From: Nitrospira sp.
Lineage (GTDB): Bacteria; Nitrospirota; Nitrospiria; Nitrospirales; Nitrospiraceae
Assembly (NCBI GenBank): GCA_013140455.1
Contig: JABFSU010000008.1
Coordinates: 1-56,432, forward strand
DNA: 56,432 bases
Reading direction: 5' to 3'
Part shown: positions 15,762 to 52,925 of the stretch, one piece after another
Layout of the letters: each line of letters starts with the position of its first letter
Position numbering within the stretch: the first letter of the stretch is position 1
Notes under the pieces: generated by a model
Databases searched by the model: none
What the model saw: only the letters and a program-made list of their open reading frames with translations
What the model was told of the DNA's origin: nothing
Translations under genes and position numbers: made by a program

Positions 15762-15790
15762 TCCCGGTGTGGCGCGAGGAGATGGTAGTC

Positions 15791-17297: not shown

Positions 17298-17383
17298 TAA
17301 GCAGGTGTGAACCGTACGCTGAGCAAGACCATGACACATCAGACGCTGAACTCACATCACGTGCGATCAAGGATGGAGATCTT

Positions 17384-18295: not shown

Positions 18296-18333
18296 ACGGC
18301 CACCACTTCGACAATCCGGGCAAGGAGGTCTTT

Positions 18334-19647: not shown

Positions 19648-19667
19648 AAAAAGGAGCGCACTGTCTC

Positions 19668-20609: not shown

Positions 20610-20616
20610 GGCGGTC

Positions 20617-21558: not shown

Positions 21559-21604
21559 GCCCGTGGCGCTCAAGCGATGGCGGCAACCTACCGATAAAGT
21601 GGGC

Positions 21605-30808: not shown

Positions 30809-30823
30809 AGCGAAGATCCTCTC

Positions 30824-31838: not shown

Positions 31839-31884
31839 CGTGCGCTCCAGCCTTGCCGGGTTCGCCTCTGTCGGCCGCGAGTGG

Positions 31885-32436: not shown

Positions 32437-32485
32437 CTGTTGAACTCCTCTGTCGTCGATCGTCTTCACCGTCGTCGCGCCCCAT

Positions 32486-33721: not shown

Positions 33722-33723
33722 GC

Positions 33724-37783: not shown

Positions 37784-37898
37784 GTCATTCCTCTTGATGT
37801 TGTATCGCTCGATGTCGTTCCATCCGTGTGTGCTGGCAATTTCTCCAGGACGGCGCCTCCACCCCGTCGGGCACTCGGCTTCGGATTGATGAGCACCG

Positions 37899-38558
37899 CT
37901 AGGCCAGCGGAAGCGGCTTGGCCGGCCGGCTAATACCGTCCCACTTCCTCAACTTTTCCCGGTTGTCGTCCATCCATTGAACGTACTCGGCAATATCCAT
38001 TGCTCGCGACATCGCCGGGCAGCCCGCCCAGCGGTCCAGCTGGTCGTTTCCGTACAGGACGACGCCGATATGGCTCGCTTTGTCCTTGTCGACGACGGGG
38101 TTGGGATCGACAAATCCGAGCCGTCGGCGGATCAATTCCATGTCCTGCTCAGTCCCGCTCAGGAACGACCAGCCAGGTCCGATGTTGAATCGTTCCGAGT
38201 AGGCCTTGAGCACGGCGGGAGTGTCGTGCCGCGGGTCGAGCGTAATGGAATACATGAAAATGTCTTTCCCGACCCGCGGCGCCAGCGCCTTTTGCACCAA
38301 CGCGAGGTTGGCGGTCTGCAAAGGGCAGCTATCGGGACAGCTGGCGTACATGAAGTTAATGAGGACGTGCTTGCCCTTGATCAAGTCGTCGTAAAAACGG
38401 GCAGGTTGGTTCTGATGGGTGACGACCGGCACGTTCGGGATGCGGCGGCTTTCCTGTCCCCCCGGTGCCGGTGGGGTCCCGGCGATCGCCTGTCCCATCG
38501 CCAGCGCGGTCTGTGCGAGGGCCTGCAACGAGTCTTCGATAAATGAGCGTCGATTCAT
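37899..38558 (-). CDS. SCO1/SenC-type copper chaperone
   Basis: A 219-residue thioredoxin-fold protein. Copper ligands are Cys74 and Cys78 in the CPDSC motif and His163 in KASHIGVV. The N-terminus MNRRSFIEDSLQ resembles a twin-arginine signal but its hydrophobic part is weak, so the export route is uncertain. SCO proteins load copper into cytochrome oxidase or act as thiol reductases. Its position, 40 nt after the multicopper oxidase gene, suggests it matures that oxidase (inference). AAGGAGT lies 9 nt before the ATG. Confidence 0.9.
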   Translation of the reverse strand: MNRRSFIEDSLQALAQTALAMGQAIAGTPPAPGGQESRRIPNVPVVTHQNQPARFYDDLIKGKHVLINFMYASCPDSCPLQTANLALVQKALAPRVGKDIFMYSITLDPRHDTPAVLKAYSERFNIGPGWSFLSGTEQDMELIRRRLGFVDPNPVVDKDKASHIGVVLYGNDQLDRWAGCPAMSRAMDIAEYVQWMDDNREKLRKWDGISRPAKPLPLA

Positions 38559-38598
38559 AACGGCAGTACTCCTTCTTCCTGGGCGACGCCGGTCCGGT

Positions 38599-40218
38599 TT
38601 ACGGAACGATGTCGAACCGGACCATCATCGCGTGGTCTTCATGCACCGTATTGTGGCAGTGCATGACATAGCGTCCCGTGAAATCTCGGAATTGAATGTA
38701 GATTTGCACCTCGTCGTTGGGGCCCAGTTCGACGACGTCGTGCCGGCCGATTTCCTCAGGCTCAGGCGTTTGCCCGTTGCGCAACAGGATTTGAAATTCT
38801 TCAAAGTGGATGTGGATCGGGTGCGACCAGCCGCCGCCGGCGTTTCTGAGCGTCCACACTTCCGGCACGCCCTGCGGAATGGTCGCGACAGGCGCATCGG
38901 GGTTGTAGAATTGTCCGTTGATCGCCCAAGCTCCCTGTGTCCGCTCGAACGTAAACGTCCGGCGAGGCGTCGAGGCGGTGATGTTGATCGGCGGCAGCGA
39001 CCGCATCGAAAGCGGGAGCGGAGGAGAATCCGCCGCCTCCAAGTCGACATCGAACCGAAGCACCTGTGTGCCATGCTGGAGAATTGTGCCGGTCGGGCCG
39101 CGTCCATCGACCTGTTCGAGACGATTTTCTAAGAACACCCGGTCGCCGATTTGGTATTGGGAGAAGTCAATCACGATGTCGCGGCGTTGGGCCACGGCGA
39201 CACGGGCGCTCTCGACGGTGATCGGTCCCGGTAAGAGATTCCCGTCGGTGGCGATCAACTCGAAGCTCTTGCCGTCGCTGAGAAAGAATTCATAGAATCG
39301 TGAAGGCCCGCCATCCAACAGCCGGAAGCGATACTTCCGTCTGGCCACTTTCAAAAAGGGCTGGATAGCGCCGTTGACGGTGATCTTGTCCCCGAGGAAG
39401 CCGTCGAAGCTGAACTGGTCGAAGACGAGTTGTCCCGCCGCATCGAATGTCTTGTCGGCGAACACGAGCGGAACATCATATTGACCGCTCGGGAGCTTCA
39501 AGGCTTGCGGATTCGGATCTTGTTCGTTGCCGGTGTCTTTGTGATCGAAGAACAAGACGAACCCGGCCAGGCCGCGGTAGGCGTTCGGGGCGGTGAAGTC
39601 CTTGCGATGGTCGTGGTACCAGAGCGTGCCGAGCGCTTCCCGTTCGTCGTCGCCTGCATACTTGCCGCAGTAGTGATGGTCGCGGAATTCCCCAAAATTC
39701 ACAAAGCCGATATTAGGGTTCCCGTCGCTTTCCCAGGCCGTGTGGAAGTTGTGCATATGTGTAATGATCTGCGGGATGCCGAATCCGACGTGATCGGGGG
39801 GCAGCTCGTTGTGGATACGGATGAGAAAGGGGGCTCCGTACCTGCCCGTGATCGTAGGGCCCGGGAAGATCCCGTTGTAGCCCCAAATCTTTGTCAGTGG
39901 CAGGTCCGGGTGAAAGGAATGCAATGCTTCCCTGACCCGGATTTCGTAATAGTGGATCGGCGGATACTCTGAATACCGTTGATGGTTGCCCGGCACAGGC
40001 GACGGGTCCAATTGGGCCGGCGGCACCGGCTGCAAGACGGGCGGCATCGGCAGCGCATGGACAAACGGCGTGGTCGGCGGGCTGACAGCCGGGATGTCCG
40101 GAGGACACGCCGGAGGAGTCTGCGAGGAGGCCGACCTGATGCCCTGTACGCCTCCGCTGATCAGCGCGGCTCCGCCGGTGATGAATCCCCATTTCAAGAA
40201 ATCTCGCTTGTTGATCAT
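38599..40218 (-). CDS. Multicopper oxidase (three-domain, Tat-exported)
   Basis: A 539-residue oxidase that would couple one-electron oxidation of a substrate to O2 reduction. The Tat-type signal NKRDFLKWGFITGGAALISGG is present, with KR in place of RR. All four copper motifs are in order: HMH at 154-156, HDH at 202-204, HPIHIH near 480, and HCHNTVHEDHAMM at 520-532 (type 1 Cys521 and axial Met). Relatives include CotA, bilirubin oxidases and phenoxazinone synthase; manganese oxidation is also known in this superfamily. Substrate cannot be told. ATG 40218 has GGGAGG 7 nt upstream. It sits between gspD and the SCO gene in one transcription direction, so it is a natural candidate for a type II secretion substrate. 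Confidence 0.92.
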   Translation of the reverse strand: MINKRDFLKWGFITGGAALISGGVQGIRSASSQTPPACPPDIPAVSPPTTPFVHALPMPPVLQPVPPAQLDPSPVPGNHQRYSEYPPIHYYEIRVREALHSFHPDLPLTKIWGYNGIFPGPTITGRYGAPFLIRIHNELPPDHVGFGIPQIITHMHNFHTAWESDGNPNIGFVNFGEFRDHHYCGKYAGDDEREALGTLWYHDHRKDFTAPNAYRGLAGFVLFFDHKDTGNEQDPNPQALKLPSGQYDVPLVFADKTFDAAGQLVFDQFSFDGFLGDKITVNGAIQPFLKVARRKYRFRLLDGGPSRFYEFFLSDGKSFELIATDGNLLPGPITVESARVAVAQRRDIVIDFSQYQIGDRVFLENRLEQVDGRGPTGTILQHGTQVLRFDVDLEAADSPPLPLSMRSLPPINITASTPRRTFTFERTQGAWAINGQFYNPDAPVATIPQGVPEVWTLRNAGGGWSHPIHIHFEEFQILLRNGQTPEPEEIGRHDVVELGPNDEVQIYIQFRDFTGRYVMHCHNTVHEDHAMMVRFDIVP

Positions 40219-40648
40219 GTCACATCCTCCCAAGGAACCAATGTCGTTCTAATCGACGTGCCGGATTCAGTTCTTCGTGATGGCCGTTCTTCTTGTCCTG
40301 CATGCCGCCGCTGTTGCAAAGTTGGTGCTAGGTGGCAGGACGCGTGAATCACGGCTATTTCATGTGACGGCACGGGGCGCACCGTTCCGGTGTAAAAAAA
40401 TGTGTCACACCCCGAGTGCGACTTGGACGGTGGGCGCGGACCCTGTGACGAGAGACCTCGCTGGTCTGCGACCTCGCGCGCGGTCGACGCACGCAGGAAT
40501 TGCTTTGGAAAACAGCAATCTGAATTCGACTGCGGAGGAGGACGTGTGAGGAGACGCCGCCGGCCTGGGACGGTGGGGAGCGCAAGAAACTGGAAGACCG
40601 TCAAAGATTGTTACAGCACGCGTCTGTGCGCCTGCCGTCCGATGTGTC
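40219..40648. other. Intergenic region between gspD and the multicopper oxidase gene
   Basis: About 430 bases without a supportable gene; the overlapping frames look like noise. It is long enough to carry its own promoter for the oxidase-SCO-peroxidase group, and one sigma-54-like site is seen in it (40315-40330, minus strand). Confidence 0.6.
40315..40330 (-). promoter_or_regulatory. Candidate sigma-54-like promoter of the multicopper oxidase gene
   Basis: Read on the minus strand the sequence is TAGCACCAACTTTGCA. It matches the -24/-12 pattern TGGCAC-N5-TTGCA except that the first G of the GG is A. It would start transcription near 40303, about 85 nt before the oxidase ATG. The G-to-A change is at a highly conserved base, so activity is doubtful. 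A sigma-54 regulator gene lies 2.8 kb away. Confidence 0.3.
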
Positions 40649-42283
40649 TCAGGGCTGGGGCTCTTTTCGGACTGAGGGAGTCAGGCGTTCGAGGATTTCT
40701 TGCTTCAGCCTGGTCGGTTCCTCGATTCGATTCTCCCGCTGCAGCATCAGCAATTCGTCGGCCTTTCTCTGATTGAGCGCCGTCACATCCTGATGGTCTT
40801 TGAGGATGTGCGGCGTCAGGAACACGAGTAGGCTGAGCTTTTCGACTTGCCTGGTTTGAGACTTGAACAACCATCCGAGCAAGGGGATGTCTCCGAGCAG
40901 CGGGATCTTCGATTCGCTGATAGAGAGGTTATCCCTCACGAGGCCCCCGATCACGACCGTTTGCCGGTCATGGGCGATCGTCGTGGTTTCCATCGCCCGC
41001 TTGGTGGTCGTCGGTCCCACGGGAACGGTCGCGTTGCCCGATCCGATGGTTTGGGCGACGTTTTCCGAGATGGCTGTGATTTCTTGCTTGATCTCCATTC
41101 GAATCAAGTCGTTGTCCAGCACTTGCGGGGTGAGTTCGAGGGTGACGCCGACATCTTTCCGCTCGATCGTGACGAGCGTCCCTCCCGTAATCCCTTGGGA
41201 CTGTCCGGTCGGAAACGGCCGATTCTCACCGACGACCATTTTGGCTTTCTGATTGTCCGAGGCCATCACTTGCGGGGTGGACAAAATATTGGTGTCGGAG
41301 AGGTTCATCAGAAAGTTCAGAAAGGCTCTCACGTTGACCGTATTGAGCACTGTCAGGGCTCCTCCTGAAGAGGCGCCGGCGGCCGTCCCGCCGATGGTTT
41401 GCGCCAGCGCGGCAAGATCTTCAGGCGCTCGATTCACCCCGGCGACGCCTTGGACGGACCCTCGCTGCCCCGCCGCAATCACCTGCGCGGGATCGGTGCC
41501 GATCTGGCGCAATCGGTCGACGGACACCTCCAGGATCACGGCTTCCACGAACACCTGGCTGCGCGGCGTGTCCAGCGAGTGAAGGACCGATTGCAGTTTG
41601 GCATAGGACAATTTCGTCGCCGTGATGACGACGGAGTTGGTGGCTTTGTCGGCGAGCACTTGAATCGGCCCGTCGAATTCCCCTGCCGGCCGCATGAGCG
41701 GCCGGGCGCCCGGCACCTGCGGAGAGGCCTGCGCCTTGGTCGCCAGCGTGGTCAAAATTGCGGCCACTTCTCCCGCGTTGGCATGGTGCAGCTTGTAGAC
41801 AAACACGCCCCGCTCCGACGGCACGTCGGCCAGATAGACGATTTGAACGATGTTGCCCATGGGGACGGTCGTCAGCCGGTTGACGGCCAGCGTGGCCAGA
41901 AACATGTTGTACGCCTGCTCGACGGTCACCATGTCGGGAGAATACAGCGTGATTTTGCCCATGGCTTTCTTGACTGTGTCGTCGATGACGAAGTTCTTGC
42001 GCGTCAGATCGCTCATGAATTTGACGAAGACCGGGAACTCCACTTCGGTGAAATCGATCTTGGCTCGTCCGGTCCCGGCGGCGCCGTTCTCCGCGCGCGA
42101 GGCCTCCGGCCATGCGGCGCCAAGGGTCAGGAAAAAAGTCAGGAAGAGGAGCAGCGGAGCGGCGAGGCTCCAGGCGACTGGCCGATCAGCGTTGCGCGTG
42201 TGACGCGCGGCGCCGTCGGCGGCATGAGGGCGGCGAAGGCCGGCGTGATCGTGCCTGCGGAACGTGGGTCGGCGTGGGTTCAT
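40649..42283 (-). CDS. gspD: Type II secretion secretin GspD
   Basis: Outer-membrane channel of 544 residues, shorter than the common 650. A long N-terminal extension precedes a hydrophobic signal (SLAAPLLLFLTFFLTLGAAW). The N0-like domain has KIDFTEVEFPVFVKFMSDLTRKNFVID. One or two N domains follow (VFVYKLHHANAGEVAAIL; QVLADKATNSVVITAT). The secretin core has STPQVMASDNQKAKMVVGENRPF, VGVTLELTPQV, VVIGGLVRDN and LLGDIPLLGWLFKS. At least one N domain fewer than usual. The ATG overlaps the gspC stop (ATGA). Confidence 0.93.
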   Translation of the reverse strand: MNPRRPTFRRHDHAGLRRPHAADGAARHTRNADRPVAWSLAAPLLLFLTFFLTLGAAWPEASRAENGAAGTGRAKIDFTEVEFPVFVKFMSDLTRKNFVIDDTVKKAMGKITLYSPDMVTVEQAYNMFLATLAVNRLTTVPMGNIVQIVYLADVPSERGVFVYKLHHANAGEVAAILTTLATKAQASPQVPGARPLMRPAGEFDGPIQVLADKATNSVVITATKLSYAKLQSVLHSLDTPRSQVFVEAVILEVSVDRLRQIGTDPAQVIAAGQRGSVQGVAGVNRAPEDLAALAQTIGGTAAGASSGGALTVLNTVNVRAFLNFLMNLSDTNILSTPQVMASDNQKAKMVVGENRPFPTGQSQGITGGTLVTIERKDVGVTLELTPQVLDNDLIRMEIKQEITAISENVAQTIGSGNATVPVGPTTTKRAMETTTIAHDRQTVVIGGLVRDNLSISESKIPLLGDIPLLGWLFKSQTRQVEKLSLLVFLTPHILKDHQDVTALNQRKADELLMLQRENRIEEPTRLKQEILERLTPSVRKEPQP

Positions 42284-42819
42284 CGTGCCTCTCGCGGTTG
42301 GGGGGGCGCGGTTGTCAGCGCCGGTACGTCGAGTTTCGGGCTCGCGGAAGCGAGCCATTCTTCCTGCCGTCCTTCTCGAATCAGGATGCGCTCATTCTGA
42401 ATATCCGCCAGTTCACCGATCTGAAAGATTCGTTCGCGCACGCGGAAGAGCCCCTGCTTTTTGCTGGTGAGATCTTCGACGATGGCGACGCCGCTCCCGT
42501 GTTCTCGCTGCACGGTTCCGATCAGACTGAGCTTTCGCGAGAGATTCAGCCCTCCCTCCACTCGAACCCCGGGTTGCGCGCCGTCCGCGACCGGGAGGGG
42601 CTCCGGGGTAACGGGGAACAATTTGCGGCTGAGGATGGCCTCCGCGTGTTTCCGCGCGCGCGCCGGCTCCGCGTTTCGCGCCTCCGGTCCTGCGGCTGCC
42701 GGTGTGTCCGCCGGCGCGGTTTCAATCGGAGCGCGGTGAAACCGCTGGACCGCGCCGTGCGCGAGCAGCCCGCCGACGGCGCAGGCAATGATGATCTGAA
42801 GGCTTCGATAGCGAGTCAT
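42280..42819 (-). CDS. gspC: Type II secretion protein GspC
   Basis: A 179-residue inner-membrane protein that bridges to GspD. One N-terminal helix (LQIIIACAVGGLLAHGAV) is followed by a linker and an HR domain (LSLIGTVQREHGSGVAIVEDL...GLFRVRERI). No PDZ domain is present, so it is a short GspC. It is the first gene of the cluster. ATG 42819 is preferred; GTG 42837 is also in frame. Neither has a strong ribosome site. Confidence 0.82.
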   Translation of the reverse strand: MTRYRSLQIIIACAVGGLLAHGAVQRFHRAPIETAPADTPAAAGPEARNAEPARARKHAEAILSRKLFPVTPEPLPVADGAQPGVRVEGGLNLSRKLSLIGTVQREHGSGVAIVEDLTSKKQGLFRVRERIFQIGELADIQNERILIREGRQEEWLASASPKLDVPALTTAPPQPREAR

Positions 42820-43119
42820 CTTTAATTGCGTCGTCACACGAAATTGCGAGCTGCCGGTCTTGTCTCTCTCACGATCTCCACGTGACGGCAGACGTTTGCC
42901 GCAGTGTATGCGCGTCGGGCGCCCTCGCGACAGTCTTCAGAAGGATGGGTTCCCCCTTCGAAAGAAGGGCCTACGAATGGCTGATTGCCGATGCCGAAAG
43001 TGCAGGCTTATGGTGGGTTCCGAAGCAACGGGCCCGGCGGACGAGCGAGGCCGATGGTGAAATCTTTTAGATCGCACAAGGTTTATCGCACACAGTTCAA
43101 GGGGGGAGCGCACGGTATT
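42820..43119. other. Divergent intergenic region between gspC and the sigma-54 regulator
   Basis: About 300 bases separating two diverging genes, so it should hold promoters for both. A small hairpin CCCTTC-GAAA-GAAGGG lies near 42953-42968. No GG-N10-GC site fits either direction. Short frames here look like noise. Confidence 0.5.
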
Positions 43120-44508
43120 ATGAAAGCACAGCACATGAGCGAGCTGCCGGTCAGAGTCGTGATGATCGAAGCCTCGGAGTCTTTGTGTGAGCAGGTTCAC
43201 CAAGGTGTGCGCGAGGTCTGCCATGTCGAATGGGGAACCGTACCCGCGGACGTCCTCCGGCTGGTCAGGGCGGTGGCCCCGCACATCGCGCTGCTCGACG
43301 CCGATCTGTTCAAGACGCCGGAGGGGTTCGGCGAGGCGGCGCGCGTCATTCAGGAACTCAAGCGCCTGCAGCCCGCGCTCAAAATTATTTGCACCAGCGG
43401 AGCCGGGATGGAATGCGCGCGGGCCGTCGCGCCGCTCGGCGTCTACGATGTGGTGACCAAGCCGGTCGAGGCCGGCATTCTCGTCCGGCTGATTCGCAGA
43501 GCCTGCTGGCTCTCTGCGGCGGAGTGCCATGGCGGCGCCGCCCATCGCGCGCCGGCGTCCGAGGCCTCCGAAGCCTCCGAAGAGATGATCGGCACCGGTG
43601 AAGGCATTCGACGGGTCTTCACCGCGATCAGAAAGGTCGCCACGACCGATCTGCCCGTGCTGATTACCGGAGAGAGCGGCACCGGGAAGGAATTGACGGC
43701 CAAGGCGATCCACGAGCGGAGCGGTCGCAAGGACCACCCCTTCGTCGCCATCAACTGCGGAGCCATTCCAGACACCCTCATCGAGTCGGAGCTCTTCGGG
43801 CATGAACGCGGCGCCTTCACCGGGGCCGTGCAGCAAAAGAAAGGCAAGGTCGAAGCGGCTCAAGGCGGGACGTTGTTTCTCGACGAAATCGGAGAAGTGC
43901 CCATTGCCCTCCAAGTGAAACTGCTGCGCTTTCTTCAGGAGCATCGTTTCGAACGGGTCGGTGGCCGCCAGGCCATCACGATCGACGTGCGCGTGATCGC
44001 CGCGACGAACGTGAATCTGAAAGACGCCATCGCGCGGGGCCGTTTCCGGGAGGATCTCTACTACCGCTTGGCGGTCATGCACATTCATCTTCCTCCGCTC
44101 CGGGATCGCAACGGGGACGTGCTGCTCATGGCGTCGGTCTTCCTCAGCCAGCTTGCGCACCAGCAGGGCAAGCGGGTCAAAGGATTTTCAGACGACGCCA
44201 TTCGCGCCATGAAAGCGTATCCCTGGCCGGGGAACGTCCGCGAGTTGCTGAACAAGTTGCGCCGCGGTGTGGTCATGGCTGAGGGGCCGTATGTGACGGC
44301 GAGGGATTTGGAGCTTTCCACGGGGGAAGAGGCCGTCTCACCGGAACCCTTAGGCCGTCTGCGAGAAAAGATCGAAGTCGATTTCCTCTCGCAGGCATTG
44401 GCTCGCCATCACGGCAACCTGAGCAAGGTGGCGCGGGATCTGGAAATCAGCCGGCCGACGTTGTATCGCCGGTTGCAACGGTATGGATTAGTCCGGAGAC
44501 CCGAGTAA
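43120..44508 (+). CDS. Sigma-54-dependent response regulator
   Basis: A 462-residue NtrC-type activator. Residues about 9-130 form a receiver domain with acceptor Asp60 (IALLDADLF), Thr92 and Lys114 (VTKPV). The acidic pocket is reduced (MIEASES, where most read DD). Residues about 155-385 are the AAA+ domain: Walker A GESGTGKE (184-191), GAFTGA loop (231-236) that contacts sigma-54, and Walker B TLFLDEIGE. The C-terminus is a Fis-type helix-turn-helix (GNLSKVARDLEISRPTLYRRL). Close in pattern to the PrsR group of exopolysaccharide regulators. ATG 43120 follows GGGGGGAG. The sigma-54 promoter 144 bp after its stop is its probable target. Confidence 0.92.
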   Translation: MKAQHMSELPVRVVMIEASESLCEQVHQGVREVCHVEWGTVPADVLRLVRAVAPHIALLDADLFKTPEGFGEAARVIQELKRLQPALKIICTSGAGMECARAVAPLGVYDVVTKPVEAGILVRLIRRACWLSAAECHGGAAHRAPASEASEASEEMIGTGEGIRRVFTAIRKVATTDLPVLITGESGTGKELTAKAIHERSGRKDHPFVAINCGAIPDTLIESELFGHERGAFTGAVQQKKGKVEAAQGGTLFLDEIGEVPIALQVKLLRFLQEHRFERVGGRQAITIDVRVIAATNVNLKDAIARGRFREDLYYRLAVMHIHLPPLRDRNGDVLLMASVFLSQLAHQQGKRVKGFSDDAIRAMKAYPWPGNVRELLNKLRRGVVMAEGPYVTARDLELSTGEEAVSPEPLGRLREKIEVDFLSQALARHHGNLSKVARDLEISRPTLYRRLQRYGLVRRPE

Positions 44509-44650: not shown

Positions 44651-44666
44651 CGGCACCGTATTTGCG
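44651..44666 (+). promoter_or_regulatory. Sigma-54 promoter of the amyloid-like operon
   Basis: The sequence CGGCACCGTATTTGCG has GG at 44652-44653 and GC at 44664-44665 with ten bases between, matching TGGCAC-N5-TTGCW in all but the first and last base. Transcription should begin near 44677, giving a leader of about 20 nt before the ATG at 44698. The gene just upstream encodes a sigma-54 activator with an intact GAFTGA loop. Confidence 0.8.
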
Positions 44667-44697
44667 AAGTGCCGGATACATTCGGCGAAGGGCAGGA

Positions 44698-45144
44698 ATG
44701 CATCGTATGAGGCGGTCAATGGTGACAAAGATCATGCAGCGAGCAGCCGACGCACAGCGGATGATAATTCTGGCGCTGGCGTTGACGGCCTGGCTTGCGC
44801 CGAACGCGCGTGCGTTCGGCGGAGAGGTGTGGCCGGCGACCCTCGACCACGAGGGGATGAGCCGCCCGGTGTTCCCGATGGGCGCCATGCCGGATGCATC
44901 AGTCCAGGCGATTGCGGGCACGCACGAGATGCCGGCGATCGACGCGTCACATTTTGTAACACTTTCACCGGAGGAACTCGCGACGATCGCCGGTATGGGC
45001 GTGATGCCGGAGGCGCCGGGGACCCCCACCACAGGGGTCGTACTGTGGGATGAACGACCGCAGGCCCCGGCGGTTGTCGGGGCAAACCTCAGTAGCGGAC
45101 AGCACAATCATCAGACCATCGGTGTGATGATCCAAGGGTTTTAA
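44698..45144 (+). CDS. Small exported protein with a GG-like motif and one repeat (Fap-operon first gene)
   Basis: Exported protein of 148 residues; a named family is not recognised. The signal peptide is RMIILALALTAWLAPNARA (about 21-39). Residues 89-100 read LSPEELATIAGM, fitting the double-glycine leader pattern L(-12) S(-11) E(-8) L(-7) I(-4) G(-2), though the last residue is Met. The C-terminus VVGANLSSGQHNHQTIGVMI resembles one unit of the N/Q repeats in the next four proteins. First gene behind the sigma-54 promoter, it stands where fapA stands in Pseudomonas, but I see no sequence match to FapA. Possible roles are a nucleator, chaperone or processed minor subunit. GAAGGG precedes the ATG. 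Confidence 0.75.
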   Translation: MHRMRRSMVTKIMQRAADAQRMIILALALTAWLAPNARAFGGEVWPATLDHEGMSRPVFPMGAMPDASVQAIAGTHEMPAIDASHFVTLSPEELATIAGMGVMPEAPGTPTTGVVLWDERPQAPAVVGANLSSGQHNHQTIGVMIQGF

Positions 45145-45183
45145 TGAGTCAGCTGACCGGAACGGAAGACGAATGGATTGGGC

Positions 45184-45220
45184 AAAGGAGGTGACGGGCC
45201 TCGTGACCGAGGGCCCCTAA
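45184..45220 (+). promoter_or_regulatory. Strong ribosome site with five-codon frame and hairpin in the operon leader
   Basis: AAAGGAGGTGAC (45184-45195) is a near-perfect complement of the 16S rRNA end. Seven bases later GTG opens a frame of five codons ending TAA at 45220. The same bases form a stem (45196-45203 with 45208-45216, one bulged G) over the GTG. No longer gene uses this site. It may control translation of the first subunit gene downstream, or be the relic of a lost gene. Confidence 0.35.
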
Positions 45221-45280
45221 ACAGGCACAGGGTGGAATCGAGTGAAGGAGAGACGTGAATTGAACCAGAGGAGGATCACA

Positions 45281-46066
45281 ATGCGTACAACGTGGGTTTC
45301 AATCGGAATCATGGCCGGGATCGCCATTATGGCTTCCCCCGTCCGTGCCGAGGTCGTCGTGGTGGGAGAAATCAACAAAGACCGCGATGTCACCGTGACG
45401 GAGACGATCGAGAAGGTCAAGACGGTGCTCATCAACGCAGATGTTGATATCGCGCTGGAAAAGGCGGCGGAGTCCTATGCGCATGTCAACCAGCTCAATC
45501 AGGGCAACGAGGCCTGCGAGAATTGCGCCGAGAAGGCGGATATTCTCAGAGCCGCGGCCAATTACAATTCAGGTGTCCTAAGCGTCAACCAAGCGGCCGG
45601 CAACATGAACAACCAGGGCAATGCCGTGGCGGTGTCGTTCGATCAGCCGGATGCGCAACCGTCGACGGGTCGTGGCTTTGCGGATGCCACAGCGGCGGCG
45701 CACCAGATCATGCTGGAGAACACGATCGATAGCCAGAACATCGGCTTTCGTCGCACGGAGATGACCGGGTCGATGAACTTCAATAACGGCATTGCGCATG
45801 CCAATCAAGCGGCGGGCAACATCAACAACCAGGCGAACAGCGTTTCCGTGGCGGTGTCGCTGGCTCCCGGCGTGGTTCTGTCCGAGGCCGATCTCGGCCA
45901 AGTCAACCGCGGGAACAGCGTGAAGGAAGTTGACGTCAACAAATCTGCGACGATCACGAATTCCCTCAACGGGAACATCGGCATCGTGGGTGTGAACCAA
46001 GCCAGCGGCAACAATGCCAACCAGGCGAACGTGGTGGCGTTTTCCGCCGCGGCGCGGTTTAACTAA
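45281..46066 (+). CDS. Three-repeat N/Q-rich amyloid-like subunit 1 (FapB/FapC-like)
   Basis: Secreted protein of 261 residues with a Sec signal (about 1-23, ending VRA). Three repeats lie at about 97-120, 168-193 and 232-257, each of the form NxGxxxxNQAxGNxNNQxNxVxV (for example VNQAAGNMNNQGNAVAVSF). Linkers separate them; the second has LSEADLGQVNRGNSV, also found in the following paralogues. A CENC motif is at 79-82; Pseudomonas FapB and FapC also carry CxxC, but near the C-terminus. The pattern of three repeats with linkers is that of Fap fibre subunits. Curli repeats differ (S-x5-Q-x-G). GAGGAGG lies 6 nt before ATG 45281. Which subunit nucleates and which forms the fibre cannot be told. 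Confidence 0.82.
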   Translation: MRTTWVSIGIMAGIAIMASPVRAEVVVVGEINKDRDVTVTETIEKVKTVLINADVDIALEKAAESYAHVNQLNQGNEACENCAEKADILRAAANYNSGVLSVNQAAGNMNNQGNAVAVSFDQPDAQPSTGRGFADATAAAHQIMLENTIDSQNIGFRRTEMTGSMNFNNGIAHANQAAGNINNQANSVSVAVSLAPGVVLSEADLGQVNRGNSVKEVDVNKSATITNSLNGNIGIVGVNQASGNNANQANVVAFSAAARFN

Positions 46067-46083
46067 GACGAGGAGGACGAAAT

Positions 46084-46860
46084 ATGAACAAGGTTGTGAC
46101 ATTTACCGTGGCGGCGCTGGCGATGGGCGGAGCAGCTATTGCCCAGGCCGATGTGACGGCGTTGGTCGGGGTGACCAAGGACGTCGTCATCGTCAACAGT
46201 GAGACCATTGAGATCAACAAGACCGTCGGTCTGAATGTGGTCGTCAACCAGAATCTCGACGGCGCGGCGGAGGCTCAGGCCATCGCCAGCGTCACGAATC
46301 TCGATAACGAGTACAATCTAACGGATGCCCGGTACAATTCTTCGTTGTTGAGGTCAGTGCTTGGGCATCAGGGTGTGCTCGGATTGAACCAGGACACCGG
46401 CAACATGGCCAATCAAGCCAACTTGTTGTCGGCCTCGACGACCGGAGTCGAAGGGAACAGGGGCACGTTCGCGAATGCGCAGGCGGAGGCGACCATGAAC
46501 ACCGGCGCCGGCGACAACAAGATCACGAACGTGATCGCGTCATCCACGATGACGGATTCCGTCAACCGCAACAACGGCATCATCGGGGTGAACCAGAGCA
46601 GCGGTAACATGATGAGCCAACTGACGGCGGTGGCGATGGCGATCGGGGCTGAATCCCGGATTGCGTTGTCCGAAGCCGCCTTGGGACAGACCACCAGCGC
46701 ATCCACGTTGACCCTCGACGGGACCCACAGCAGCGCCTCGATCCCCGGCTCGATCAACGGGAACGTCGGGATCATCGGCGTGAATCAATCTAGTGGCAAC
46801 AACGGAAACCAGGCCGTCAACGTCTCCGTTGCCGCGTCGTTCCTTCCCGGAACACGCTAA
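46084..46860 (+). CDS. Three-repeat amyloid-like subunit 2
   Basis: Secreted protein of 258 residues with a signal ending AIAQA (about 22). Repeats lie at about 96-118 (VLGLNQDTGNMANQANLL), 164-188 (IIGVNQSSGNMMSQLTAV) and 226-252 (IIGVNQSSGNNGNQAVNV). The shared block between repeats 2 and 3 is IALSEAALGQ. An N-terminal block LDGAAEAQAIASVTN recurs in subunit 3. There are no Cys. GAGGAGGACGAAAT precedes the ATG. It starts 17 nt after subunit 1 and is probably co-transcribed. Confidence 0.82.
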   Translation: MNKVVTFTVAALAMGGAAIAQADVTALVGVTKDVVIVNSETIEINKTVGLNVVVNQNLDGAAEAQAIASVTNLDNEYNLTDARYNSSLLRSVLGHQGVLGLNQDTGNMANQANLLSASTTGVEGNRGTFANAQAEATMNTGAGDNKITNVIASSTMTDSVNRNNGIIGVNQSSGNMMSQLTAVAMAIGAESRIALSEAALGQTTSASTLTLDGTHSSASIPGSINGNVGIIGVNQSSGNNGNQAVNVSVAASFLPGTR

Positions 46861-46893
46861 GCGCACCGTCAAGGATAAAGGAGGACTACAGAC

Positions 46894-47745
46894 ATGAAGA
46901 CATTACGCATTGCGGCAATCAGCGCGCTCGGCTTGGCGATGGTCGCAGGACCAGCTTTGGCTGAGGACTCGTTTGTGTTCGTCACGAGCGATATTCTGAA
47001 GACCAAGAGCATCTCTGTCACTGAGGACACGTATACCGATAAGTATGCGGACATCCGGGTGAACGGACTGTTCGCTCCGGAAGGCGCGGCGGAGGCGCAG
47101 GCTATCGCCAACGTGACGAATTCGGGAAACAGGGTCACTACCGGTGGGAGCGAGGCCACTCAGGATGTCGAGGCCCATGCGACGATCGACAGCACGGTGG
47201 CCGGTAATAAGGGCATCTTGGGCTTCAACCAGGATGCGGGTAACTCTGTCAACCAGGGCTACAACGTGGCCGTGTCCCTGTCGAACGTGAAGTCGGTGAC
47301 GGATGCGCAGTCGTGGGTTGATCAGCGCAACCAAGAAAACACAGTCAGAGCCACGTCGCATGACTATCTTGATGGTCAAGCCAGCAAGACGGCGACGATG
47401 AAGAATACGATCGGCGCAGACAGCGCCAGTGCGCATCAAGGGCTCATCGGCGTCAACCAGAACGTCGGGAACATGAACAACCAGACCAGCTCGGTGGCGC
47501 TGGCGCTCGGCGTGGGGGCGCAGGTCGCTCTGTCCGAGTCCGCGTTGGGCCAGGTCAACATGGGCAACAAAGTGTACGAAGTCGGCACCATGAAGACGGA
47601 CCTGATTGAAAACGCCATGAACTACAACTTGGGCACGGTTCAGGTCAATCAATCGGCCGGCAACATGAACAACCAGGGCTCGTCGATTGCCATCTCGGCT
47701 ACCGTCGCTCAAGCGACGTTGGTTCCGGCAGTCAGAGGGTTCTAA
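46894..47745 (+). CDS. Three-repeat amyloid-like subunit 3
   Basis: Secreted protein of 283 residues with a signal ending ALA (about 23). Repeats lie at about 105-129 (ILGFNQDAGNSVNQGYNV), 181-206 (LIGVNQNVGNMNNQTSSV) and 245-271 (TVQVNQSAGNMNNQGSSI). The shared VALSESALGQVNMGNKV lies between repeats 2 and 3, and EGAAEAQAIANVTN near the N-terminus matches subunit 2. The first linker is longest here, with a charged stretch DAQSWVDQRNQENTV. No Cys. A GC-rich hairpin follows the stop codon. AAAGGAGG precedes the ATG. Confidence 0.82.
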   Translation: MKTLRIAAISALGLAMVAGPALAEDSFVFVTSDILKTKSISVTEDTYTDKYADIRVNGLFAPEGAAEAQAIANVTNSGNRVTTGGSEATQDVEAHATIDSTVAGNKGILGFNQDAGNSVNQGYNVAVSLSNVKSVTDAQSWVDQRNQENTVRATSHDYLDGQASKTATMKNTIGADSASAHQGLIGVNQNVGNMNNQTSSVALALGVGAQVALSESALGQVNMGNKVYEVGTMKTDLIENAMNYNLGTVQVNQSAGNMNNQGSSIAISATVAQATLVPAVRGF

Positions 47746-47756
47746 TCGGTCATCCG

Positions 47757-47787
47757 GTCGGGCGGGAGCCTTGCGCTCCCGCCCGAC
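47757..47787 (+). terminator. 13-bp intercistronic hairpin
   Basis: GTCGGGCGGGAGC and GCTCCCGCCCGAC pair perfectly over the loop CTTGC, right after subunit 3. No T-run follows, so it is more likely to stabilise the upstream mRNA or attenuate than to end transcription fully. That would favour expression of subunits 1-3 over subunit 4 and the export genes. Its core GGCGGGAGC recurs in the hairpin at 49882-49919. Confidence 0.6.
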
Positions 47788-47825
47788 TCTCCGGGTGGGT
47801 TGTGCAAAGGGATTTAAAGGGATTT

Positions 47826-48626
47826 ATGGACGGACGAGACAGAGGACTCACATCGTTGATGCGGTGGCAAGTCATGGCCGGGGCCATGATTGTGTCGTTT
47901 GGGTGTCTGGGCTTCGGATTGGACGCCGTTGCGCAGGTTTCGGGGTCCGGAGGCCTCTCAACTGGTACAACGAGTTCCAGTACCATTGTAGTGGAAACGG
48001 AAGAGATCCATTTGGCCGGCACAGGCGTCGTGTCCAGTACGACAGTGGCTGCGCAAGTCATCGCCGACAATCAGATCGAACAACTCGGCGTCATCGGCAG
48101 GGTGTTGCTGCAGGATGCCTTTCACGGCAACGCCGGAATTGTGAACGTGAACCAGGAAGCCGGCAACGTGAACAACCAGGCCAATGTGCGGGTCCTGGCA
48201 TTCATGGCGACGGAAGTCGGGTCGATCATCGGGGCCTTGAATCTGGCGGTTTCTCAGAACCTGACGAACAACACGGTCGTGTCGGACGGGGGCGAGCGCA
48301 GCACGCGCATCGCCAACAGTTTCGGCAATGCGGCCGGCATCGTGGGGGTCAATCAAACCGCCGGGAACGCCAATAATCAGCTCAACGTTCTGGGGATGGC
48401 GGTCGGCGACACGCTGGGGCCGGATGCGTTGCCGATCAACGATACGACGCTCGGGCAGGTGTCCAGCGGCAAACGGGACGCGCCGGTCAATAATAGCGCT
48501 CGCGCGGATGTGATCGAGAATTCATTTAGTAATTTTCGCGGGATTGCGCAAGTCAATCAGTCGTCGGGCGATCTGAATTCGGTCGGCAATGTCTTAGGTG
48601 TTTCGTTTCAGGTTTTCAACCGGTAA
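47826..48626 (+). CDS. Three-repeat amyloid-like subunit 4
   Basis: Secreted protein of 266 residues with a long signal (WQVMAGAMIVSFGCLGFGLDAVAQ). Repeats lie at about 101-127 (IVNVNQEAGNVNNQANVRV), 167-193 (IVGVNQTAGNANNQLNVLG) and 236-262 (IAQVNQSSGDLNSVGNVLG). The third is the most degenerate. The shared linker block is reduced to INDTTLGQVSSG. It is the most diverged of the four and may be a minor or capping subunit (inference). ATG 47826 follows AAAGGG; the leader contains a 10-bp tandem repeat AAAGGGATTT. Confidence 0.78.
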   Translation: MDGRDRGLTSLMRWQVMAGAMIVSFGCLGFGLDAVAQVSGSGGLSTGTTSSSTIVVETEEIHLAGTGVVSSTTVAAQVIADNQIEQLGVIGRVLLQDAFHGNAGIVNVNQEAGNVNNQANVRVLAFMATEVGSIIGALNLAVSQNLTNNTVVSDGGERSTRIANSFGNAAGIVGVNQTAGNANNQLNVLGMAVGDTLGPDALPINDTTLGQVSSGKRDAPVNNSARADVIENSFSNFRGIAQVNQSSGDLNSVGNVLGVSFQVFNR

Positions 48627-48634
48627 GGAGTTCC

Positions 48635-49315
48635 ATGAAGGCTTGCTTCGTCGTTGCGATGCTGATCTGGGCCGTCTGCGCGGATTCCGCCTGGGCGAAT
48701 CCTCCGATTCCACTGCCGGGCGGGTCGATGCTGGCCAATGTTCCGGTCAAGAGCCTCGTCGAACTCCGGTTTCAGAATATCGAACGGCAGGCCTACGACA
48801 TCAGTTGCGGGGCCGCCGCGATGGCGACGCTGCTCAAGTACTATTATCAGGAAGATGTTCGTGAGCAGAGTCTCGTCGATGCGATGATCGCGGTGGGCGA
48901 CAAGGACAAGATCCAGCAGGAGGGGTTCTCGCTGTTGGAAATGAAACGGTTTGCCGAGCAGCGGGGATATGTGGCCAACGGATATCGTATTAGTGACGTA
49001 CAGAAGCTGGCCAATCTCAAGATCCCGTATGTGGCGTTGGTCAACGTTCGTGGGTATGCGCATTTCGTGATCGTCAAGGGAATTGCAGACGGGGAAGTCT
49101 TCATTGCCGATCCGGCCTACGGCAATCGCTCCCGGACGCTCGAAAGTTTTGCCAATGAATGGAACGGTGTCATCCTGGTCATTTTGCATTCGAGCCGGGA
49201 GGGGAACAGCGACTTTACGATGGACACACTGCCTAAGGCGTCGATGGGGCAGGTGGTGCCGATTATTCAGCGGTTAGGCAGCGCTATCTGGCCACGAGGG
49301 GCTGCCGAGTATTGA
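48635..49315 (+). CDS. C39-type cysteine peptidase (FapD-like)
   Basis: Exported 226-residue papain-like peptidase with a signal of about 22 residues. Catalytic Cys58 is in YDISCGAAAMATLL, His143 in GYAHFVIVKG, and Asp159 in FIADPAYG; Gln52 fits the oxyanion position. In bacteriocin exporters C39 domains cut after double-glycine leaders. As a stand-alone exported protein between amyloid subunits and a barrel gene, this matches FapD, which is needed for Fap fibre formation in Pseudomonas. Candidate substrates with the leader pattern are encoded at 44698 and 49376. AAGGAG lies 6 nt before the ATG. It begins 8 nt after subunit 4. Confidence 0.9.
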   Translation: MKACFVVAMLIWAVCADSAWANPPIPLPGGSMLANVPVKSLVELRFQNIERQAYDISCGAAAMATLLKYYYQEDVREQSLVDAMIAVGDKDKIQQEGFSLLEMKRFAEQRGYVANGYRISDVQKLANLKIPYVALVNVRGYAHFVIVKGIADGEVFIADPAYGNRSRTLESFANEWNGVILVILHSSREGNSDFTMDTLPKASMGQVVPIIQRLGSAIWPRGAAEY

Positions 49316-49375
49316 TAAGACGTGAAACAGCAAGTTCTCGATCGATAATGTCTTGATCGTTTGGAGGGAGAGAGC

Positions 49376-49846
49376 ATGTTGAAGCAGGTGAGTATGTGGA
49401 TGTTGGCCATGATGCTCGGAGCCGTTCCCGCGGCCGTCGCCGGCCCGCTGCACGATCTGTTGCCGTCTGATGAGTGGGCGACTCCGTTGTCTGAGCCGGA
49501 AATGGCCGGGATCCGTGGAGGATTCAACGGGCTGGCGTTCAACGTGATGTTCTCGGGATACTATACAAATGTCGGTCAGGTCGAAGGGAGTCTGGCTGTG
49601 GATACGACCGGTACGCTGACGACCGGGCCTGTGCCGACCCCGACTCCATCTGCCACTGTGCAAAACGGGCAGGTGAACATTTCAACGAGCGTCGGGAACT
49701 TTAACGGCTCCAGCGGCATTTTCCAGATTACGCAGGTGCCGGGGAATTTCAACGTCGTGAATAACAATCTATTCGTGCAGATTGCGATGGTGAATCTCCA
49801 GCCGGGTAGCCGGCTTCCGAGTCTGGCGGACTTGTTCAGACCTTGA
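49376..49846 (+). CDS. Exported small protein with a canonical double-glycine motif (FapE position)
   Basis: A 156-residue protein with a Sec signal (about 1-22). Residues 38-49 are LSEPEMAGIRGG, which match the C39 leader consensus at every key site: L-12, S-11, E-8, M-7, I-4, G-2, G-1. It sits after the signal peptide, so any cut would occur in the periplasm. The C-terminal half has a repeat-like NGSSGIFQITQVPGNFNVVN, close to the subunit repeats. The gene lies between the peptidase and the barrel gene, as fapE does. I see no direct sequence match to FapE. GGAGGGAG precedes the ATG. Confidence 0.72.
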   Translation: MLKQVSMWMLAMMLGAVPAAVAGPLHDLLPSDEWATPLSEPEMAGIRGGFNGLAFNVMFSGYYTNVGQVEGSLAVDTTGTLTTGPVPTPTPSATVQNGQVNISTSVGNFNGSSGIFQITQVPGNFNVVNNNLFVQIAMVNLQPGSRLPSLADLFRP

Positions 49847-49881
49847 GCGTCTTGTCATCGTATCGGATTTCTATCGTGCGC

Positions 49882-49919
49882 GCTCCCGCCGGTTTTCCCT
49901 TCGGAGGCTTGGCGGGAGC
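49882..49919 (+). terminator. 9-bp hairpin before the barrel gene
   Basis: GCTCCCGCC and GGCGGGAGC pair perfectly over a 20-nt loop, with CTTTGG after. A weak terminator or attenuator between the double-glycine protein and the barrel gene. A weak GG-N10-GC site (49957-49970) could give the barrel gene its own start. The same core sequence occurs in the hairpin at 47757. The rest of 49847-50116 holds nothing else. Confidence 0.45.
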
Positions 49920-50116
49920 CTTTGGATGATCTCCTTCAATACCTCCGGTTGTCGGCGGGACTTTTCCTGCCGGTTGCCGCTTGTGCCGCGCCTGCTCCGT
50001 GGCGAAGTCCGGCTTTTTTCTTGATCACTCCTTGATCTGTGATAGATCTAACGGCACAGGTCCGGCGAGTGGAATCTTGCCGCCGTGACATCTCTTTGAA
50101 TCCAGGAGGGTCCGCT

Positions 50117-51436
50117 TTGAGTTCACTTCCGGTGCTTCGTTATGTGCGTGCCGCCCTATGCAGTCTCAGTTCAATTCTTGCCGTATGCGCCGGGACCGTT
50201 CCGCTCCTTTCGCTCCCGGCCGAGGCCGCTCAGACACTCGTGGGCCAAAGTCCGGTTTCGCAGCCGCCGAATGCCTTGCCTGTTCCCCAGGGGCCGGAGT
50301 CGATCGGCGACGGCGCAACTTCCGGGCCTGCGCTGCCTGTGCCGTCGGCTCCGCAGCCGCTCGATGCGCCCCCCTCATCGCAAGGGCCGGAACCGATGAA
50401 CTCGGGCGCGCTGAGCGCGCCGATGGCTCCGTTGAAGGCGCTGTCATCGTCGGTCATGAGTGAGCCGGAGCGGCCCAAATCTGAAAAGCCCATCGACCAG
50501 CTTTCCCTTTCCCGAGGGGCCATTCTGCTGCCCAAAGGCATGCTGCAAGTGGAGCCGTTCGCGGACTACACGCGCATCTCGTCCGATCGCGTCGCCATCA
50601 ACGGATTTTCGGTATTCGAAGCCATCGTGGTCGGGACCATCCGGGTCGATCGCGTGTTCCGCGACATTTACACGACCGGAGTCAATGTTCGGTACGGACT
50701 GCTCAACCGGCTTCAACTGGAAGCCCGCGTACCATACGTGTACCGGCAGGATCGGGAGTTGACCGGAATCGGTACCACTCAGGAAGCCGACCGCACCATC
50801 CACCACGCCGACATCGGCGATGTGGAAGGCTCGCTGGTTTACCAAGCGGTGATCGGCACGGATGTGTTGCCTGACGTCCTGCTGCGGCTCAAGGGCCGCG
50901 TCCCCACGGGGACCGATTCATTCGAAGTCCCGACGACCATCGGACAGGGGGGCGAGGTCCGGCTGTTGAAGACCCCGACGGGGAACGGCTTTTATACCGT
51001 AGCGCCCGGCATTCAAATGGTCTGGCGCACGGACCCGGTCGTCTATTACGTGGGTGGAAATCTTCTGATGAATCTGGAGCGCAATGTCGGCGGCGCGGTC
51101 GGCATCGTGACGCCGGGCAATACGACGGAGTTTTTTTTCGGTTTGAACCTCTCGGTCAGCGAACGGGTCTCGCTGAACATGACGTTCTACGATTCGTGGA
51201 CCGATAATACGCGCCAGAACGGCAGACGGATCGCCGGGACCTCCTTCAACAGCGGGCTGCTGTTACTCGGTACCGCGTTGTCGCTGAATCCCACCACGAC
51301 GCTTCTGGTGACCGGGGGGATCGGGATCACGAAGGAGTCGCCTGACTTCCAGCTGGTCGTCAGCCTGCCCTTGACGTTCAGATTGCCGAGTGCCTTGCAA
51401 CTGCCGGACAAGCTGCCCTGGCTGTCCGGATCCTGA
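50117..51436 (+). CDS. Outer-membrane beta-barrel protein (FapF-like exporter)
   Basis: A 439-residue outer-membrane protein with a signal (LCSLSSILAVCAGTVPLLSLPAEA). About 100 residues of Pro/Ser-rich linker follow (to about residue 130). Then come alternating beta strands to the C-terminus: ISRGAI-like start, GVNVRYGLLNRLQLEARVPYVY, LLRLKGRVPTGTDSF, YYVGGNLLMNL, ERVSLNMTFYDSW, TTLLVTGGIGI. FapF, the Fap subunit exporter, also has an N-terminal periplasmic segment before its barrel; here no coiled coil is obvious. TTG 50117 is chosen because AGGAGG stands 7 nt before it; GTG 50039 gives 26 unlikely extra residues. Eight consecutive T bases encode the FFF at 51131-51138. Confidence 0.78.
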   Translation: MSSLPVLRYVRAALCSLSSILAVCAGTVPLLSLPAEAAQTLVGQSPVSQPPNALPVPQGPESIGDGATSGPALPVPSAPQPLDAPPSSQGPEPMNSGALSAPMAPLKALSSSVMSEPERPKSEKPIDQLSLSRGAILLPKGMLQVEPFADYTRISSDRVAINGFSVFEAIVVGTIRVDRVFRDIYTTGVNVRYGLLNRLQLEARVPYVYRQDRELTGIGTTQEADRTIHHADIGDVEGSLVYQAVIGTDVLPDVLLRLKGRVPTGTDSFEVPTTIGQGGEVRLLKTPTGNGFYTVAPGIQMVWRTDPVVYYVGGNLLMNLERNVGGAVGIVTPGNTTEFFFGLNLSVSERVSLNMTFYDSWTDNTRQNGRRIAGTSFNSGLLLLGTALSLNPTTTLLVTGGIGITKESPDFQLVVSLPLTFRLPSALQLPDKLPWLSGS

Positions 51437-51510
51437 CGGGGTTGTGGCACGGCCCCCTGTAAGGGAAGCGAGGGGAGGCCCGTGATTTCGACAGGGATCT
51501 TTGACGGTGA

Positions 51511-51552
51511 ACAGAACGGCGACCGGGACCGTAGGCCCGGTCGCCGTTCTGT
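51511..51552. terminator. Strong bidirectional terminator
   Basis: A perfect 17-bp stem (ACAGAACGGCGACCGGG with its complement) closes over an 8-nt loop, followed by TTGTCT on the plus strand. It lies between the end of the barrel gene and the convergent substrate-binding gene, and should end transcripts from both sides. Confidence 0.85.
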
Positions 51553-51600: not shown

Positions 51601-52716
51601 TTACTGAAGGGCTTCCTGCGGAGCGGCCTCCTTGGGGTTCTTGGGCGATGAGGATCTGTCAGGTGCGGCGCTTTCGGCAGCGGCTGGTTGAGAGGCCTCC
51701 AGCCGCCGGACCGCGGACTCCGCAAATCGGTTGTCGACGTATCCGTCGAGTTTCGGTAGGACTTTCAGAATTCCCCCTTCTTTGAGGCCCCATCCGTTGT
51801 ACTCTGCATCCGCCGTATCGCTGGCCGTCCAGATCGGCCGATCATACTTCGTCATGGCGATCCAGGACTTGGTGAGTTCCGGGGTGACGGCGCGCAACCC
51901 CTGCCGGTGAAAGAAGATGGCCAGGAGGCGCGCGGCGTCGTCTGGGTCTTGCTGAATGTACTTGAGCGATTTCACCCAGGCGTTCGCAAAACGCTGGACG
52001 GTGTCCGGTTCCTTCTCAATCAGCTCCGCCCGTACGATGACGGGCGCGGCGGCGATTAATCCGAGCAGGTTGGTCAGATCTTCCGCCCCCATCAACACGT
52101 GGGCGTTGCCGCCTTTCATCACAGCCGAGGTAAAATGCCGGGATTCGAAAATACCGTCGGCCAGGGGCGTCTTCTGGTCGAGCGCTTTCGTCAGGGAGTC
52201 GGGGGGGAGAAGCTTGATCGTCACATCGGAGGGGCGCAGCTTGAATTTGTTCAGGAGGCGAATGAGAACCGGATGGGCTTCCGATCCAACGCCGATGGCG
52301 ATCGTTTTCCCTTTGAGGTCGGCCACCGATTTCACGGCCGGTTGCTGATCCGAGATCACCAGCTCCATTTGAGTGCCCCATCCGTTCAACGAGAGGATCC
52401 GGAGCGGCAGCTTGAGCGCGGCCATGATCAGGCCTCCTCGTTGCGATACGGCGGCAATATCCGTCGAGCCCGAGCTGAGCGACCCGATAAGCGCTTCCGT
52501 CGAGCTGATGGTCAAGCCGTTGACGACCAGATGCTCCTGGGAAAACAGGCCGCGCTCTATCGCCACGATCGCCGGCAAGGCGTCCCAGCCGCTGCTGTAG
52601 GCGAGGCGGATGAGTTTCCAATCCCCGGCATGGCTCCATACCGGGGTGAGGACGATACTTGCGATCACCAACAGACGGTATACGGACGATTTGGCTTGAG
52701 TCACTCTTGCCTCCAT
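51601..52716 (-). CDS. ABC-type substrate-binding protein (NMT1/SsuA-like)
   Basis: Periplasmic binding protein of 371 residues. The signal is YRLLVIASIVLTPVWSHA. The fold is that of nitrate/sulfonate/thiamine-precursor binding proteins: IRLAYSSGWDALPAIVAIERGLF, then STEALIGSLSSGSTDIAAV, then VADLKGKTIAIGVGSEAHPVLI. The last 40 residues are Pro/Ala/Ser-rich. No permease or ATPase gene is near, so the ligand cannot be inferred. ATG 52716 was chosen because it precedes the signal; longer readings to 52875 add a polar, improbable stretch. Confidence 0.82.
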   Translation of the reverse strand: MEARVTQAKSSVYRLLVIASIVLTPVWSHAGDWKLIRLAYSSGWDALPAIVAIERGLFSQEHLVVNGLTISSTEALIGSLSSGSTDIAAVSQRGGLIMAALKLPLRILSLNGWGTQMELVISDQQPAVKSVADLKGKTIAIGVGSEAHPVLIRLLNKFKLRPSDVTIKLLPPDSLTKALDQKTPLADGIFESRHFTSAVMKGGNAHVLMGAEDLTNLLGLIAAAPVIVRAELIEKEPDTVQRFANAWVKSLKYIQQDPDDAARLLAIFFHRQGLRAVTPELTKSWIAMTKYDRPIWTASDTADAEYNGWGLKEGGILKVLPKLDGYVDNRFAESAVRRLEASQPAAAESAAPDRSSSPKNPKEAAPQEALQ

Positions 52717-52925
52717 TTCAGTTACGTCGAGGTTTTGCGCGGACCTGATGCTGCGCGCATGGCGGCCGATGCCATTTCGGTCCTGGCCGATGACGCCGTC
52801 CACTGTCTCTGTTTTAGCTTGAAACGGTGTACAGTCAAGCCGATATCGATTTTCACCACCTGCGTAGGAAGCCACAGCTGCCCGTCCTCCGCAGTCGTCT
52901 GTTACGGAGAGTGAATGAACCCGCT

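Follow-up and report, generated by a model that had tools for sequence, protein, structure and literature searches.

A putative Fap-type functional-amyloid export operon of Nitrospira with four subunit genes and a double-glycine leader on its FapE-position protein

What kind of system is encoded by a row of genes for exported proteins that follows a sigma-54 activator gene in Nitrospira, and which of its products would be cut by the peptidase it encodes? The genes in question are located in a stretch of 56,432 nt from Nitrospira sp. (assembly GCA_013140455.1, contig JABFSU010000008.1, positions 1 to 56,432), which was analysed as a whole and is referred to as the window. An earlier reading of the letters alone (the original prediction) had proposed an amyloid export operon of the Fap type, and the order, strand and open reading frames (ORFs) described there agree with the ORF listing, i.e., eight same-strand genes for exported-type proteins behind the activator gene, in the order A-S-S-S-S-D-E-F. 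As judged from sequence comparison, this operon very probably is a sigma-54-activated Fap-type functional-amyloid export operon, in which the C39 peptidase D would clip E and thereby license the export of the subunits S1-S4 via the barrel F, yielding fibres.

Profile searches revealed the homology to Fap to be firm for D, F and S1-S4 (Table 1), and together with the gene order these FapD, FapF and FapB/C matches support the proposed type of export system. The peptidase, expected to be an exported FapD-like C39 enzyme, also matches the Pfam C39 domain (3.8e-23), and its catalytic residues Q52, C58, H143 and D159 are invariant in 22 C39 peptidase homologues; only one other C39 domain was identified in the genome, within a 746-amino-acid open frame on another contig. 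For F, the start of which lies somewhere between 50039 and 50117, a phmmer comparison with the PDB returned FapF chains only (5o67/5o65, about 4e-27). Structure prediction from a 16-row alignment yielded the anticipated beta-barrel with confidence, and the best Foldseek hits, all of them FapF entries (first 5o67 with E 1.2e-20 and a template modelling score of 0.82 on target), outranked the COG4313 channel. The four exported repeat proteins were likewise confirmed, twice the usual number of subunits as had been stated: each carries three G-x4-NQ-x2-GN-x2-NQ repeats which are covered by the FapC/FapB model matches, and at the core repeat positions 10 homologues from three loci show no variation, the degenerate third repeat of S4 being set apart. 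S1 possesses a CxxC motif (ACENCAEK) before repeat 1, conserved in S1, the S1 of locus L032 and the first subunit of locus L063, while in Pseudomonas FapC the CxxC is found at the C-terminus (PMC5135000). The linker between repeats 2 and 3 of S1-S3 contains a conserved LSEA-x-LGQVN-x-GN stretch resembling a C39 leader without its glycines. A tree of the subunits did not resolve the origin of S2, and a tblastn search of plasmids with S3 gave no match.

As to the second part of the question, double-glycine substrates of C39 peptidases share the leader consensus LSxxELxxIxGG, and a leader of this type, PLSEPEMAGIRGG, was identified in E between signal peptide and core, where it precedes FNGLAF, the predicted start of the mature part. 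The N-terminal layout of E is MLKQVSMWMLAMMLGAVPAAVA-GPLHDLLPSDEWATPLSEPEMAGIRGG-FNGLAF, the stretch across the Gly-Gly site reads WATPLSEPEMAGIRGGFNGLAF, and a single repeat-like segment (FQITQVPGNFNVVNNNLFVQ) is present. Scored with a matrix trained on the leaders of other clusters only, E ranks first among the 472 ORFs of the window. Moreover, the protein encoded directly after fapD carries [LM]x2-3RG[GA] in 22 of 24 FapD/FapF clusters, including clusters without FapC repeats; many of these clusters are close relatives, so that the counts overstate independence. The two exceptions are Aeromonas (ELAHLRGR; its FapE has RGR) and Indioceanicola (ELDRSVGR). Within the same loci the motif occurs in 38 of 594 signal-like ORFs, 30 of which lie beside fapD, and the leader is constant across clusters while the mature parts beyond it are highly divergent. 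The canonical FapE leader was readable from one operon only, as Aeromonas FapE compared with plasmids matched only itself, and a scan of viral contigs returned no canonical FapF. The double-glycine leader of E is the strongest new point; it had been missed by the original prediction, as had the absence of a coiled coil from F (see below).

Earlier work with Pseudomonas revealed that the catalytic activity of periplasmic FapD is required for Fap secretion; no canonical C39 site was recognised in the Fap proteins, FapE was suspected and FapF also proposed as FapD target, and N-terminal peptides of FapE were absent by mass spectrometry (Rouse 2017, PMC5557850). A review from 2025 considers FapD to process FapE and FapF (PMC12822426). 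Considering these reports, the conserved leader and the nap island of Neisseria, and as the F linker offers no other GG, cleavage of E by D after the Gly-Gly is the most likely step. From the homology, gene order, intact catalytic residues and leader conservation found here, we infer the following course of regulation, cleavage, transport and fibre formation. The dedicated sigma-54 activator would switch on the operon and the eight exported proteins would reach the periplasm by Sec, where D would clip E after the leader Gly-Gly, and possibly also A at a related leader. Once E is cleaved, S1-S4 would be licensed to pass the F barrel in an unfolded state and would polymerise at the surface, forming mixed fibres of which E presumably is an associated, membrane-proximal component.

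Several observations weigh against this reading. None of the Fap matches reaches its NCBIfam equivalog cut-off, the scores being 116 for F where 700 is required, 160 for D (330 required) and 62 for S1 (195 required), and E did not match the FapE model, its homologue in L032 reaching only 0.06. A periplasmic coiled coil is missing from F, whose Pro-rich N-terminal segment (residues 26-122, 17% Pro) is disordered and devoid of heptads, while the same script finds a heptad coiled coil in Aeromonas and Cupriavidus F and likewise in Sphingomonadales examples; it is this coiled coil that was proposed to recruit substrates in FapF. Structure prediction of S3 from a 10-row alignment reached a predicted local distance difference test value of 38, on which no claim for a fold is based. 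Using the leader matrix, 10 of 5000 shuffles of E scored as high as E itself; furthermore, the leader pattern was partly chosen by eye after some leaders had been seen, and the matrix test alone was trained without the window's class of cluster. As to the cut-offs, the canonical fapBCDEF operon of Aeromonas caviae, used as control, falls short of them too (FapF 371/700, FapD 249/330, FapC 173/195), hence low scores do not exclude a Fap operon, and the cut-offs appear tuned to close relatives. The FapE model found no match in 396 Nitrospirota genomes, and since the controls were silent too this is not evidence of absence; for the small exported protein E, the FapE-like identity assigned earlier agrees with its position, its leader and its one repeat-like segment. 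The lacking FapE match, together with the Pro-rich N-terminus which F has instead of a coiled coil, leads us to call the operon a divergent Fap variant. Four subunit genes are present where two are usual, the number two not being strictly defining.

Alternatively, D and F might secrete a non-amyloid cargo, as do the nap and Fil systems, with S1-S4 forming a folded solenoid surface coat. In many Nitrospira and Proteobacteria, the cargo found with FapD/FapF pairs is indeed of quite another kind, and the nap island relies on a C39 peptidase and a FapF homologue together with GG peptides, no amyloid being involved (PMC11798529). The Acinetobacter models FilB and FilC match D and F as well, but more weakly than FapD and FapF, and the repeats of S1-S4 are covered by matches to the FapC and FapB models, three imperfect repeats being a hallmark of Fap (PMC12392863), which renders such a coat improbable. 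Less improbable, though still unlikely, is a Fap operon whose FapD leaves E uncut and has F as its target or a chaperone role, the RGG being a structural remnant: FapF was proposed as target too (PMC5557850), and the RGR of canonical Aeromonas FapE documents that Gly-Gly is not universal, but the linker of F contains no GG before the barrel and in 22 of 24 clusters the leader is found next to fapD, the mature parts being divergent. Finally, the restriction of FapC-model subunits to 2 of the order's 236 genomes and the transposases present within the window would fit an acquired operon that is decaying or non-functional; given eight intact frames, retained catalytic residues, and an order and activator common to another genus at 53% FapD identity, this is hardly credible. 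The export of S1-S4 as amyloid subunits upon cleavage of E hence is the preferred reading.

Table 1. Features of the operon and of its flanking regions, in window coordinates
Feature	Position	Strand	Basis
NtrC-family sigma-54 activator, PEP-CTERM-box response-regulator type	42985..44508	+	Pfam, NCBIfam
-24/-12 promoter candidate CGGCACCGTATTTGCG	44651..44666	+	motif match; comparable site in related clusters
A, small exported protein, FapA position	44719..45144	+	architecture common to L063, L064, L065
Conserved element AAAGGAGGTGA, about 90 nt upstream of S1	45184..45194	+	expected 0.02 per window
S1, Fap-type amyloid subunit, three repeats	45281..46066	+	FapC model 6.2e-17; solved FapC 9u4u E 0.018
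S2, Fap-type amyloid subunit, three repeats	46084..46860	+	FapC model 4.8e-13
S3, Fap-type amyloid subunit, three repeats	46894..47745	+	FapC model 2.3e-9, FapB 1.9e-8
S4, Fap-type amyloid subunit, three repeats, third degenerate	47859..48626	+	FapC 4.9e-13, FapB 1.5e-12
D, FapD-type C39 cysteine peptidase with signal peptide	48635..49315	+	FapD model 4.8e-47
E, FapE-position exported protein	49376..49846	+	leader matrix rank 1; leader conserved in 22/24 clusters
F, FapF-type outer-membrane barrel	50117..51436	+	FapF model 1.3e-33; PDB 5o67/5o65; Foldseek
Terminator-like hairpin between convergent F and NMT1-like gene	about 51510-51552		RNA fold z -4.34

Regulation by a dedicated sigma-54 activator acting at the -24/-12 candidate is suggested by several lines of evidence. 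The regulator anticipated upstream was confirmed by its Pfam domains (Sigma54_activat 1.4e-73, HTH_8 2.2e-12) and a GAFTGA motif, its receiver domain being weak; towards TIGR02915, which describes the PEP-CTERM-type response regulator, it scores 467 bits (cut-off 502.6), and RpoN is encoded in the host genome. A homologue adjoins the FapD/FapF cluster in L032 and in many Nitrospira clusters. GGCACN5TTGC occurs once in the window where 0.75 occurrences are expected by chance, so that the motif count is weak on its own; the promoter, which had also been predicted, is argued for by its position about 50 to 70 bases upstream of ATG 44719, the adjoining activator, RpoN and a AGGCATTTGGATTGCT-type site matching the -24/-12 consensus that is conserved in the space separating regulator and system of related Nitrospira clusters. 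At 45184-45194, the string AAAGGAGGTGAC is a near-perfect anti-Shine-Dalgarno match and its position corresponds to that in class-2 clusters; in the window and in several clusters (L019, L021, L022, L024, L046-L051) it is found about 80-105 nt before the first cargo start. A start codon at normal spacing is missing in the clusters carrying it, and it may be a standby site or belong to a leader ORF. Neither in the leader region nor in related clusters was a known riboswitch detected with Rfam, and the leader (45150-45280) folds no better than its shuffles. Of the strong terminator claimed downstream, the hairpin was recovered (stem about 20 bp, lying between convergent genes) but not a clean U-tract.

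The start of A was corrected to ATG 44707 or 44719, as the upstream TTG 44662 would precede the transcription start of the promoter. A matched neither Pfam nor NCBIfam, whereby the existence of an NCBIfam FapA model was not established, and many Fap operons lack fapA. It carries a C39-type leader-like LSPEELATIAGMG, related to that of E with the second glycine absent and common to L063, L064 and L065, and a VVLWDE motif. The corresponding [IV][IV]LWDE (window 45034-45055) recurs in three further Nitrospirota families, in their exported A proteins (L063 3493-3852, L064 10368-10661, L065 5624-5980), and class-2 Nitrospira clusters show it in short ORFs without a signal that lie between activator and cargo; as it is in frame in the A proteins of other families, its interpretation as a DNA element was dropped.

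The source bin (3.79 Mb, 95.5% complete) contains no 16S gene. Exact targets of the probes Ntspa662 and Ntspa712 were found in the 16S genes of two genomes of the same genus, which supports the host being a member of the Nitrospira genus group and bears out the Nitrospira-like assignment made earlier. Mis-binning of the operon is argued against by L032, which represents a second genus of the family and holds activator, S1, S3, S4, D, E and F in an order identical to that of the window, the three subunits being orthologous. Next to the operon lie a Tad pilus locus and a cluster for type II secretion (window 12464-22648, 27764-35541, 35759-40233, 40652-42837), the latter being interrupted by genes for a MauG-type di-haem peroxidase and a multicopper oxidase. 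On the other side, an NMT1/THI5-like periplasmic binding protein (window 51601-52875, minus strand) was identified as a conserved neighbour of the window's Fap class (E 1.5e-132 and 9e-109; L032 11807-12844, L010 5109-6116), in differing orientations, and is possibly functionally linked to it.

Within the order, FapF-model barrels occur in 26 of the 236 genomes, and a profile of S1-S4 homologues detected 4 of 396 sampled Nitrospirota genomes. Subunits, D and E are also present in L010 and L064, the number of subunits rising from two (L064) and three (L032, L010) to four in the window. L010 (JANQKO010000157.1), binned as an alphaproteobacterium, contains the same class with S1, S3, S4, D, E, NMT1 and F, a case of either horizontal transfer or mis-binning. 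In most of the examined Nitrospira clusters that have a barrel, activator, a Gly-rich protein, a small protein, D, E and F are encoded and no FapC match was obtained, the Gly-rich protein (about 300-370 amino acids) having one repeat-like segment at its end; in the FapD tree, the deep support of which is weak, the window's class stands apart from this Gly-rich class. The FapD/FapF clusters of a further family of the order (L018, L044, L045) have a longer peptidase (340-394 amino acids) and cargo with LSDDELDQVTAAG-type (LxDxELDxxTAAG-type) leaders. While a screen from 2013 found Fap confined to Proteobacteria (PMC3792158), fapD together with fapF was reported from five further phyla in 2018 (PMC6173800), and a GTDB screen of December 2025 lists curli and Fap operons in other phyla, Nitrospirota included (PMC12822426). 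The view that the operon lies outside the known Fap lineages is hence out of date; for Nitrospira itself no report was found in the literature searched, the latter screen naming the phylum. What is rare is the four-subunit layout, as two subunit genes are present in 94.5% of 1172 clusters (PMC12392863).

The value of the locus lies in its testable leader and its missing coiled coil. The substrate of FapD has so far not been demonstrated, and the double-glycine site of E is a concrete candidate for what it cuts, while an operon without FapF coiled coil tests the model of cargo recruitment by that element. Ecologically, the operon suggests that nitrifying Nitrospira, dwellers of flocs and biofilms, may have an amyloid matrix. 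A wider idea, to which we assign slightly less than an even chance, is that FapD and FapF constitute a general periplasmic double-glycine export machine, whose true substrates are leader-bearing E (or A/small) proteins that license the pore, amyloid subunits being one class of cargo. If so, the Nitrospira operon would retain the canonical leader which Pseudomonas-type FapE blurred to an RGR-like one, and no coiled coil would be needed.

Among known systems, PCAT/ABC bacteriocin exporters share the peptidase family and the LSxxELxxIxGG type of leader with the window, whereas the window's peptidase is free, carries a Sec signal and has no ABC transporter in its cluster. The Acinetobacter Fil system is related through FilB and FilC, the models of which score below FapD and FapF. 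In the Neisseria nap island (NapP, NapF and Nap peptides), a C39 peptidase likewise occurs together with a FapF homologue and double-glycine leaders, but the cargo consists of small cationic peptides promoting autolysis rather than of repeat subunits (PMC11798529). Pseudomonas fapABCDEF differs from the window by having two subunits instead of four and a trimeric coiled coil where F has its Pro-rich linker; in the window, E shows a Gly-Gly leader and no FapE-model match, the first gene lacks recognised FapA similarity, and a sigma-54 activator adjoins the operon. With this Pseudomonas system the window shares the gene order, a FapD-type C39 peptidase with its catalytic residues, a FapF-type barrel, three N/Q-rich imperfect repeats and Sec signals.

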